This document shows, piece by piece, positions 14,442-18,394 of a stretch of 55,710 nucleotides of DNA. Source of the stretch: Candidatus Peregrinibacteria bacterium CG_4_10_14_0_2_um_filter_38_24 (GTDB lineage: Bacteria > Patescibacteriota > Gracilibacteria > UBA1369 > LOWO2-01-FULL-3); assembly GCA_002792535.1 (NCBI GenBank), contig PFOM01000012.1:1-55710 (forward strand), read 5' to 3'. The notes beneath the pieces were generated by a model. That model was not told the DNA's origin and did not search any database. It saw nothing but the letters and a program-made list of their open reading frames with translations. Position 1 is the stretch's first letter, and each line of letters starts with the position of its first letter. The position numbers and the translations under genes were made by a program.

Positions 14442-14499
14442 TATAATTGCTCTTTTGGTTTAAAACCAGTAATATTCGCGTCGGATATAATTTTTTTTG

Positions 14500-15708
14500 A
14501 TGAAAAATGTTTTTAAATTTGATACTCCTCTTTTTTTAAGCGTAGTTTTTCTGCTTATACTTGGGCTTATCATGATTACGAGTATCGGAGTTCCAAAATC
14601 GATTGCTCTTTCCGCGCCCAATATACTTTATCCAAATTGCAGTGATGCAAATGTGGATTGTTATTTGCTTTTCAAAAAGCATTTAATACGCCTTGGCATA
14701 GGGATTTTGGCGTTTTATATTTCTTATAAATTGCCGATAAAATTTTGGAGGAAAATTGCCACTCCGTTTTTTGGAGCTATCGTGATGCTTTTGCTGTTTG
14801 TTCTTATTTTTGGAAGCACTTTCGGAACAATCGCACAAAATTGGCTCGTGGTTTTCAATACATCTCTTCAACCTTCGGAGTTCGCGAAACTGGCTATCAT
14901 ACTTTATCTCGCGTATTGGTTTAGCAAAAAACAGGCTTATATAGAGGATTTCAACAAAGGGCTTATTCCTTTTTGTATAATTTGTAGCATTATTGTTTTA
15001 CCCATAATTTTGCAGAATGATTTCGGCGGAACATTGACCGTTTCTATTATTGCCGTAGCTATGTATTTTATGGCTGGAGCGAAATTGCAACATCTCGGAA
15101 TTCTTTTTCTTGTCGCTTTTATCGGAGCACTGATTGTTATACTTTCGGTGCCGCATGTACGTGAGAGATTTCAGGGATTCACAAGTGTAAATGAAGAATG
15201 TATAGAAGATTATTGTTGGCAATCTCAACAGGCGAATATCGCTGTAGGAAGCGGTGGAGCATTTGGAAAGGGGCTGACGCAGGGAGTGCAAAAATCTTAT
15301 TGGTTGCCGCAAGCTTCCGATGATTTTATTTTCGCGGCAAGTGCCGAGGAGCTTGGATTTTTCAGGATTGTTTTCGTGATTTTGGCGTATTTTGTTATTG
15401 CTCTGCGTGGATACGAAATCGCAAGTAAGTTGCAGGGAAGTTTTGAAGCTTTGCTGGCGATAGGGCTTACAATATGGATTACCGTGCAGGCTTTTGTTAA
15501 TATTGCAGTGAACACGGGGCTTATGCCTGTGACCGGAATCACTTTGCCGTTTGTGAGTTATGGGGGGTCATCTCTTATATCATGTTTGGTCGCAGTTGGA
15601 ATTCTTTTAAATCTTTCACAAAATACAAGTTACCATGAGAATAATATTAACAGGTGGGGGAACCGCAGGACACGTTATCCCCAACGTGGCCGTTATCGAA
15701 GAGCTTAG
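14500..15708 (+). CDS. ftsW: FtsW/RodA-family peptidoglycan glycosyltransferase
   Basis: 402 residues with about ten membrane helices. SEDS landmarks: QPSEFAKLAIILYLA, LQNDFGGTLTV, QSQQANIAVGSGGAFGKGLTQG, QASDDFIFAASAEELGF and PVTGITLPFVSYGGSSLI. The last is strongly FtsW/RodA. With murG next to it, FtsW (septal polymerase) is the better call. A TTG three bases upstream (14497) is in frame, but ATG at 14500 is preferred. The 3' end overlaps murG by 74 bases, so the last 24 or so residues form an arginine-rich tail encoded within murG in another frame. Confidence 0.9.
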   Translation: MKNVFKFDTPLFLSVVFLLILGLIMITSIGVPKSIALSAPNILYPNCSDANVDCYLLFKKHLIRLGIGILAFYISYKLPIKFWRKIATPFFGAIVMLLLFVLIFGSTFGTIAQNWLVVFNTSLQPSEFAKLAIILYLAYWFSKKQAYIEDFNKGLIPFCIICSIIVLPIILQNDFGGTLTVSIIAVAMYFMAGAKLQHLGILFLVAFIGALIVILSVPHVRERFQGFTSVNEECIEDYCWQSQQANIAVGSGGAFGKGLTQGVQKSYWLPQASDDFIFAASAEELGFFRIVFVILAYFVIALRGYEIASKLQGSFEALLAIGLTIWITVQAFVNIAVNTGLMPVTGITLPFVSYGGSSLISCLVAVGILLNLSQNTSYHENNINRWGNRRTRYPQRGRYRRA

Positions 15709-16687
15709 AAAGCGCGGAGGCGCTGAAGTTCTTTACGTGGGATCAAAGGTGGGAGTGGAATGCGGAATAATGGAAAAAATGGGCGTGCCTTTTGTAGGCG
15801 TTCATTGTGGAAAACTTAGAAGATATTTTTCTTGGAAAAATTTTGTAGACGCCTTGAAAGTTCCGACCGGAATTTTTCAGGCATACAAGGCCTTGAAAGG
15901 ATTTTCTCCTGATATAGTTTTTAGCAAAGGCGGCTATGTTGCTGTGCCGGTTGTTATTGCGGCGAGTCTTTTAAGAATTCCTGTAGTTTCGCATGAATCA
16001 GACGTAAGTCCAGGGCTGGCAAATAAAATTTGTTTCAGATTTTCTAAACAAATTTGTTTGAGTTTTGAAGAGACAAAAAGTTTTATTTCAAAATCTTTGA
16101 TGAAAAAAGTTGTTGTGACCGGAAATCCTGTTCGCGAAAGTATTCTAACGGGAAACAGCGATATTGGGCATAGATTTACGGGCTTAGACAAGCATCGTCC
16201 CGTGATTTTGATAATGGGCGGGAGTCTTGGGGCGAAACAAATAAATGATTTCGTTCGTGAATCTTTGAACGAACTTTTGAAGAGATATCAAATCGTGCAT
16301 ATTGCCGGAAAAGGAAATCTTGATATGGGCGTACATAAGGAAGGATATAGGCAATATGAATTTCTGGATGAACCTTTGAAAGATATTTTTGCGATGAGTG
16401 AAATGGTAGTTTCTCGCGGCGGGGCAAATAGTCTTTTTGAGCTTGCCCTAATGAAAAAGAAGGTTTTGATTATTCCACTTGCCATGCACGCAAGTCGTGG
16501 CGAACAGATTGCAAATGCACAGGTTTTTGTGAGAAAATTCGGATGGTCGATGCTTTCTGGAAATATTTCCGCAGATGAATTTTTGAAAACCATCGAATAT
16601 GCTTTCAATAACAATATAAACAAAAGTGCGAAAGTCGAAAATGGGACGAGTGGGATAGTTGATATCATCAATAAATTTAAAAAATAA
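15635..16687 (+). CDS. murG: MurG, UDP-GlcNAc:lipid I N-acetylglucosaminyltransferase
   Basis: 350 residues, family GT28. The N-terminal glycine-rich loop is GGGTAGH (7-13), a variant of the usual GGTGGH. FSKGGYVAVPVVIAA, VSHESDVSPGLAN, VTGNPVRESI, IMGGSLGAKQINDFV and VVSRGGANSLFELALMKKKVLIIP complete the donor site. It makes lipid II on the cytoplasmic face of the membrane. The start lies 74 bases inside ftsW; the N-terminal beta strand and loop require this start. Its TAA shares one base with the next ATG. Confidence 0.95.
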   Translation: MRIILTGGGTAGHVIPNVAVIEELRKRGGAEVLYVGSKVGVECGIMEKMGVPFVGVHCGKLRRYFSWKNFVDALKVPTGIFQAYKALKGFSPDIVFSKGGYVAVPVVIAASLLRIPVVSHESDVSPGLANKICFRFSKQICLSFEETKSFISKSLMKKVVVTGNPVRESILTGNSDIGHRFTGLDKHRPVILIMGGSLGAKQINDFVRESLNELLKRYQIVHIAGKGNLDMGVHKEGYRQYEFLDEPLKDIFAMSEMVVSRGGANSLFELALMKKKVLIIPLAMHASRGEQIANAQVFVRKFGWSMLSGNISADEFLKTIEYAFNNNINKSAKVENGTSGIVDIINKFKK

Positions 16688-17214
16688 TGAATCTTGTAAA
16701 TATTCTCATCATAGTTGGCGCGGTGATTTTTATATTGGCGTTGTGGATTATTGTTGGAGTGAGGCACTTGAAATATTTGAGGCTGTCTGCCGAAAACCAA
16801 TGGGACACAGTAGATGCAAAAATAAGAAAAAGACATGATTTGATTCCGCTATTTGTAGAGTTTTTTAAAACTCATATAAGCGGACAGGACGTGCTTATAG
16901 AGGGATTGATTGCAGAAAGATCCATTGCGTCGAAAGAATATGCGCCAAGTGCAAATAAAATGGTTTATGAACATGATATTTCTGCCACTTTGGGTAAAAT
17001 TTTTAACATTGCTAAAACCAATCCTGAGTCATTTAAAGATACTGTTTTTTTGGAAGTAAAAAGCCAAATGGTGGATGTTTTTGATGGAGCGAGAAGTGAT
17101 TTGAAAAAATATAATGAGACCATAAGAACATATAATGCTCATCGTGATTTCGTTATACTGAAGCCTATTTCTCGCATTTTCGGATATGGCGTTTTAAACA
17201 TCTTCGACATATAA
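16687..17214 (+). CDS. LemA-family membrane protein
   Basis: 175 residues: an N-terminal membrane helix (about 4-25), then LSAENQWDTVDAKIRKRHDLIPLFVEFFK, which is the LemA signature (AENQWDxVDxxLKRRxDLIPNLV), and near the end DLKKYNETIRTYNAHRDF...PISRIFGYG, matching the paired YN motifs. The N-terminus is out, helical-bundle domain placement is as in other LemA proteins. Role unknown in bacteria. It shares one base with the murG stop and so belongs to the ftsW-murG unit. Confidence 0.82.
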   Translation: MNLVNILIIVGAVIFILALWIIVGVRHLKYLRLSAENQWDTVDAKIRKRHDLIPLFVEFFKTHISGQDVLIEGLIAERSIASKEYAPSANKMVYEHDISATLGKIFNIAKTNPESFKDTVFLEVKSQMVDVFDGARSDLKKYNETIRTYNAHRDFVILKPISRIFGYGVLNIFDI

Positions 17215-17247: not shown

Positions 17248-17298
17248 TTGACGGTGAGTCTTTACTCACCTATATTGGGGGTGAGCATACACTTACCC
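17248..17298 (+). promoter_or_regulatory. lexA promoter with two LexA-type operator palindromes
   Basis: A promoter TTGACG (17248-17253), 17 bases, TATATT (17271-17276) has the spacer almost filled by a perfect palindrome, GGTGAGTCTTTACTCACC (17253-17270). A second palindrome of the same size and sequence class, GGTGAG-N6-CTTACC (17280-17297), covers the expected transcription start. Consensus GGTGAG-N6-CTYACC. This is neither the E. coli CTGT-N8-ACAG box nor the Gram-positive CGAAC-N4-GTTCG box. Placement argues for tight autorepression. Confidence 0.8.
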
Positions 17299-17308
17299 TA
17301 ATAAATAT

Positions 17309-17926
17309 ATGGATCAAGTATTAACAGAAAAACAGGAGGCCGTACTAAAATTTATCGAAGAATATCAATTGGCTTACGGCAAGTCCCCTACTTTGCGCGA
17401 GATGCGAGAACATTTTGGAGTTAGTTCTGACAACAGCATCCTTAAGCATTTGAGTGCATTGAAAGAAAAAGGATATATACAAAAAGATGACACGCCTCGC
17501 GGAATTGGACTTCTAAACAGTGTTAAAGAAAAACTTGTAGAAGGTGCGTTCAGTTTACCTATCTTGGGATTTGTGCCGGCTGGAGGGCCTGTGGTGACTG
17601 ATGAATACGTAGAAGGATGGATGAAAGTTGGAGAAGAGCTAGCAAAAAATAATACTGATTATTTTTTCTTGAAAGTTACGGGAATCAGCATGATAGATGC
17701 AGGCATTTTTGAGGGAGATTTGGTCCTTGTAAATACAAAAAAGGAACCAAGGGCAGATGATATCGTTGTTGCGTTGATTGACGAAGGAAATACTTTAAAA
17801 AGACTTGTTAAGACCAATGGAAAATATTATTTAAAAGCTGAGAACAAGGATTATAAAGATATTTATCCAAAAGAATCTTTGACTATTCAGGGAGTTGTTA
17901 CCGGACTAATAAGGCAATATCAGTAG
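17309..17926 (+). CDS. lexA: LexA SOS repressor
   Basis: 205 residues. The N-terminal winged helix (1-70) has LTEKQEAVLKFIEEYQ and TLREMREHFGVSSDNSILKHLSAL. The S24 peptidase part has the self-cleavage pair Ala91-Gly92 (FVPAGGPV), nucleophile Ser127 (GISMIDAGI; the family usually has GDSM) and general base Lys164 (NTLKRL). On DNA damage, RecA-stimulated cleavage at Ala-Gly lifts repression. The recognition helix region differs from E. coli, in keeping with the unusual operators directly upstream. Single gene unit; no Shine-Dalgarno, only an AT-rich stretch before the ATG. Confidence 0.94.
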   Translation: MDQVLTEKQEAVLKFIEEYQLAYGKSPTLREMREHFGVSSDNSILKHLSALKEKGYIQKDDTPRGIGLLNSVKEKLVEGAFSLPILGFVPAGGPVVTDEYVEGWMKVGEELAKNNTDYFFLKVTGISMIDAGIFEGDLVLVNTKKEPRADDIVVALIDEGNTLKRLVKTNGKYYLKAENKDYKDIYPKESLTIQGVVTGLIRQYQ

Positions 17927-18394
17927 AATCTCTCAGAAAAAGAAAATTTAAAAAATTAAAACGTATTTCTCGTTATTTAAGCGAGACGTTATTTCCCTAA
18001 CCCCAAAACTTATGTTCATCACATTAACAATCGACACTCACAAAGTGAAAAAGTCTGCAGTAAAGATGCAGAAAAAAATCTTTGTTCCCGGTACTGGAGG
18101 TAGCTGGAGGAATGGTTTGCATGCCAAAAAACGTGGTTTCTTTGACAAAATGTTTGCCTTGAAACGAGTCAGAGGAAACTATGCACTCAGTGGACAGGGA
18201 GTGTTGGTGTAAACGATATTACCTGTCGTATTTCCCCATATTTATCGCTTTGTTCTGCCCTACTGTTTCATTAATACCTTGTGGTGATGTCCACTGAGTT
18301 GATAATGGACTCAATGTGCATATTCTTAAGTAATATCCATTCACTGTATCCCTTATTGCTTTATCTGGATGTGTGGACGCGGAATTGCCCCGTA
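17927..18394. other. Region without a convincing gene downstream of lexA
   Basis: About 470 bases with only short open frames. One (18012-18212) could encode 66 basic residues and is listed separately. An inverted repeat TCTCG...CGAGA lies near 17967-17987 and TGAGT...ACTCA near 18295-18315. The right part abuts two gene fragments, so the whole stretch is probably rearranged or decaying DNA. Confidence 0.4.
18012..18212 (+). CDS. Possible small basic protein, uncertain
   Basis: 66 codons from ATG to TAA. The product is lysine/arginine-rich with a glycine-containing VPGTGGSWRNG stretch and no recognised domain. There is no clear promoter or ribosome binding site. It sits in a region that otherwise looks degraded, so it may be a remnant or chance frame. 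I do not recognise it. Confidence 0.25.
   Translation: MFITLTIDTHKVKKSAVKMQKKIFVPGTGGSWRNGLHAKKRGFFDKMFALKRVRGNYALSGQGVLV

Follow-up and report, generated by a model that had tools for sequence, protein, structure and literature searches.

The promoter of lexA in the window (the whole stretch of 55,710 nucleotides that was analysed) carries two copies of a palindrome of the form GGTGAG-N6-CTYACC, and the question raised by this arrangement is whether the palindrome is the operator of LexA, and thus the SOS box, in this lineage. LexA motifs vary by phylum. The lexA gene (17309..17926, + strand) is complete and encodes a 205-residue protein, the assignment of which rests on profiles and structure alignment. 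The protein carries both Pfam domains, the winged helix-turn-helix LexA_DNA_bind (PF01726) and Peptidase_S24 (PF00717), scored 164.1 bits against the TIGR00498 equivalog (cut-off, 110.95), and matched E. coli LexA structures at an E-value of about 1e-29. Alignment with E. coli LexA placed the recognition helix, SDNSILKHL, at residues 40-48 (codons 17426..17452), the predicted self-cleavage site at Ala91-Gly92 (17579..17584), and the predicted catalytic pair at Ser127 (17687..17689) and Lys164 (17798-17800), all on the + strand. Close relatives of this LexA are found in MAGs named Candidatus Peregrinibacteria, Peribacteria and Gracilibacteria, i.e., Peregrinibacteria-type Patescibacteria. On the 3′ side, a consensus scan alone marked a terminator-like hairpin at 17968..17986 (+ strand), and directly 5′ of lexA, at 14497-17214, lies a cluster of cell-wall type with FtsW-like, MurG-like and LemA-like (175-aa) genes, which were named by eye.

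A sigma-70 scan identified the −35 hexamer TTGACG (17248..17253, + strand) and the −10 hexamer TATATT (17271..17276, + strand), with 10 of 12 consensus matches and a spacer of 17 bp. Operator 1, a predicted SOS box (GGTGAGTCTTTACTCACC, 17253..17270, no strand assigned), matches at 6/6 arm positions, overlaps the −35 hexamer by that hexamer's final G and otherwise equals the exact 17-bp spacer; given the hexamers and the spacing, spacer and operator 1 are thus one and the same. Predicted operator 2 (GGTGAGCATACACTTACC, 17280..17297, no strand assigned), with 5/6 arm matches, covers the predicted transcription start near 17283, upstream of the lexA ATG at 17309. The initial annotation had placed two 18-bp palindromes in the lexA promoter, one filling the −35/−10 spacer and the other on the transcription start; direct reading of the sequence confirmed the palindromes, and the sigma-70 scan bore out their positions. 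Operators 1 and 2 are the only exact matches to the pattern in the 55.7-kb window, and with up to two mismatches the window alone gave five matches against a shuffle mean of 2.1, which is not significant. The weight of the case therefore rests on genome-wide counts.

The host genome (1.10 Mb in 43 contigs) was scanned with the reversed pattern as the control. The exact pattern occurred at seven sites and the control at none, and the best form of the box, GGTGAGYRTAYRCTCACC, was found with up to three mismatches at eight sites, again against none. These eight sites precede lexA (two sites), recA, radA, dinD (the dinD equivalog, at 370 bits with a cut-off of 242), one Bro-N gene and two RhuM-family genes. 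Seven of the eight lie between TTGAC and a TATNNT-type −10, the exception being the second lexA operator. A scan upstream of recA, uvr and polymerase genes had been proposed as a check of the motif. In the host it located the box at recA, and also at radA and dinD, but no uvr gene is among the eight consensus sites (up to three mismatches); as all eight are at other genes, uvr control in the host was rejected. With respect to polymerases, the host genome encodes no Y-family polymerase (IMS, PF00817), although its LexA regulon is intact; Y-polymerase genes with sites were found in four relatives, and a uvrA site in one family, designated f15.

Conservation was determined in 29 readable lexA promoters of the order, the host included. 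Operator 1 is present in 28 of them with 11-12 of the 12 arm positions, so that the motif is indeed kept before lexA in relatives, and operator 2 is present in 26 with at least 10 arm positions. The centre-to-centre spacing between the two ranges from 21 to 28 bp across the relatives, which suggests that a set helical phase between the boxes is probably not required. In the class sample, for which totals were summed by hand from a per-genome table, the exact form GGTGAG-N6-CTCACC had 212 occurrences across 60 order genomes, where the control had 2; the 228 genomes from elsewhere in the class together held 11, with 18 for the control. Judged against the reversed-pattern control, the host-genome and order counts rule out a chance origin of the motif. 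Outside f15, the order genomes lacking an exact site are G014 and G035, where the sites are degenerate. A 25-bp composite of promoter and box, TTGACRGTGAG-N6-CTCACCTA, was rare outside the order in the phylum sample when up to two mismatches were allowed; a spread of the composite promoter beyond the order was rejected, the remainder of the phylum sample being at background level. No exact composite site was found in viral contigs.

Promoter register and targets were surveyed at about 107 sites in 26 genomes of the order. At 70 of the 107, TTGA is located 5-6 bp 5′ of the box and a −10 follows it, a count that is biased toward this layout because the orientation of each site was picked by promoter score; the chance level of the −35 register was estimated at about 3/107. 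Of these 70 sites, 66 are followed by a start codon at a distance of 1-66 bp. The recA gene carries a box in the TTGAC layout in 25 of the 26 genomes, and the remaining one (G031) has a site with one mismatch. Other targets in this layout were radA (7), dinD (6), Bro-N and RhuM relatives (17), rmuC (3) and KilA-N (2), with single cases of a Y-polymerase, a PIF1-like helicase, DUF2130, AntA, Fic and a cytosine methylase. The other 37 sites are outside the TTGAC register; many of them are upstream of members of an HNH-type gene family or of no clear target, and a number may have arisen by chance.

The HNH-type family is multicopy (PHROG match) and has SOS-box-like palindromes upstream, often off the TTGAC register (L131:86-1267, L178:184-1212 and about 20 more loci); one member scanned against Pfam gave no match. 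In f15, the boxes of this family take the f15 form described below. Three DUF763 genes (L145, L185, L189) are preceded, at 18-50 bp, by an exact box without TTGAC in the usual register.

The family f15 bears on the identity of the protein that binds the box. Exact GGTGAG boxes are absent from all five f15 genomes, and the LexA recognition helix reads SDGF[IV]VHC (IHC in one genome) in place of the SDNS[IV]LKH of the GGTGAG users. The f15 lexA promoters carry TTGAC-[CT]ATGAG-N6-[CA]TCATA or near variants (L062-L065, L067), the recA promoters of all five genomes carry T[AG]TGAG-N6-[CT]TCA[TC]A, and the pattern YATGAGYNNNNRCTCATR is enriched in f15 genomes. Sites of the f15 form, in short TATGAG-N6-CTCATA, precede lexA, recA, a Y-polymerase gene, uvrA, an unclassified 386-aa gene and the HNH-type family (L151-L155, L204-L218). 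In the LexA tree, f15 forms a clade (support 100/99) that is nested among GGTGAG users and adjoins G044 and G040. In G071, a genome of family f28 from outside the order, the SDNS helix is retained and the lexA and recA boxes are of the GGTGA type. Helix and box thus change in concert, as binding by LexA would predict, and this covariation of helix and operator constitutes strong indirect evidence that LexA would bind the GGTGAG box. On the tree the change took place once, as a single natural experiment, so the evidence is strong but unrepeated. Another form was seen in family f19 of the same class (L069-L071, L073), in which GTGNACGNNCGTNCAC-type palindromes occur at lexA together with a helix that reads RSKNA[IV]AK; this form is related to the GGTGAG box and has few sites genome-wide.

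We conclude that GGTGAG-N6-CTCACC, with GGTGAGYRTAYRCTCACC as its best form, is almost certainly the SOS box of this order of Patescibacteria and the predicted binding site of LexA. The reading of the palindromes as a LexA operator, put forward in the initial annotation, is thus supported by the target genes and by conservation before lexA in relatives. According to the mechanism that we propose by analogy with the LexA family, one palindrome would be bound by one LexA dimer, and in the usual layout, TTGAC-GGTGAG-N6-CTCACC-TATAMT, the box itself forms the −35/−10 spacer. Since the box is the promoter spacer, bound LexA should exclude RNA polymerase, and the second lexA box, over the transcription start, should confer tighter autorepression. 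Upon DNA damage, RecA on single-stranded DNA would promote self-cleavage of LexA at Ala91-Gly92, which would release the lexA, recA, radA, dinD, Bro-N and RhuM genes. Binding, occlusion, cleavage and induction are all inferred from what is known of the LexA family.

Could another repressor, either a LexA-like paralogue or one of phage type, bind the palindrome, lexA being merely one of its targets? The host does have a second LexA-type gene (G000:C5:7939-8535; L219:1534-2145, − strand) whose product is 36% identical, and several of the box targets are phage-like (Bro-N, RhuM, AntA and KilA-N). However, the paralogue differs in its helix (TSHSTAQFH), and its own promoter, which contains TTGACGTGAACATTCTTAC, has no GGTGAG box, two features that disfavour it as the binder. 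Moreover, most genomes of the order have a single strong LexA match and yet possess the motif, and in f15 the operator and the main-LexA helix change jointly. We therefore regard binding by another repressor as very improbable. It is harder still to credit that the repeats belong to the promoter only incidentally, or to an unrelated repeat family, and are positioned at lexA by coincidence. Such a reading would fit the two-mismatch matches in the window alone, which do not exceed shuffles, and the roughly one third of order-wide sites that fall outside the promoter register, but it is at odds with the order counts (212 exact sites versus 2 in the control) and with the preservation of two operators before lexA. 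It is also contradicted by the target list, which consists mostly of recA, radA, dinD, lexA and Bro-N/RhuM, and by the covariation of helix and operator.

A further alternative accepts the LexA box as genuine and concerns its novelty. Sanchez-Osuna, Barbe and Erill reportedly described the SOS network of Patescibacteria in 2017, a study of the same superphylum that asked the same question as the present one. The motif could already have been reported there, which we consider possible but rather unlikely. A comparative study of exactly that scope does exist (doi 10.1111/1462-2920.13826) and is cited in PMC8565304 and PMC7739468. In PMC7739468, however, it is one of three studies cited for LexA proteins whose recognition sequences are direct repeats, not palindromes, which suggests that at least one motif of the 2017 study differs from the GGTGAG palindrome. 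A literature search found no GGTGAG LexA motif among the titles and abstracts listed.

Taking the palindrome as the LexA box of this order, we compared it with known SOS systems. The initial annotation held that it differs from the known SOS boxes, and this stands with respect to the motifs quoted in PMC8565304 (among them GTTC-N7-GTTC, TTAC-N3-GTAA and GGTT-N10-AACC). Seventeen LexA motifs were known by 2021 (PMC8565304), so the GGTGAG box is one more lineage motif within an established range. The nearest is the Geobacter sulfurreducens operator GGTT-N10-AACC (PMC8565304), likewise a palindrome of 18 bp whose outer arms are GGT-N12-ACC, and bound by LexA in Geobacter; the box described here differs in that positions 4-6 are GAG, the core prefers YRTAYR, the lineage is another, and box and promoter spacer are fused. 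As in the LexA/RecA system of E. coli, there is an intact LexA with a winged helix-turn-helix, an Ala-Gly site and a Ser/Lys dyad, and boxes are found at lexA, recA and dinD, but the operator sequence and recognition helix are different and the host regulon is small and without a Y-family polymerase gene. Lineage-specific operators with a conserved target core are also features of the Bacteroidetes SOS repressors; arms and spacing differ from those, however, and the present protein is a LexA homologue, which the Bacteroidetes regulators are not.

The lack of a translesion polymerase in the host regulon runs contrary to the usual core of the SOS response, of which such a polymerase is usually called a conserved part (PMC8565304). 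With this motif, the DNA-damage regulon can be read throughout an order of bacteria that are uncultivated and have small genomes. We put at about even the chances of a broader proposal, namely that this order uses a LexA code of its own, built in as a consensus-promoter spacer, and that f15 rewrote GGTGAG to TATGAG through a few helix changes in an orthologous LexA while keeping the targets. The f15 case has the appearance of an in-place drift of the SOS code and, if the proposal is true, would document a step in the evolution of an SOS box in which no paralogue take-over is detectable. The nested f15 family is in effect a natural mutant, with which both the LexA protein-DNA code and the drift of the SOS box would be directly testable.
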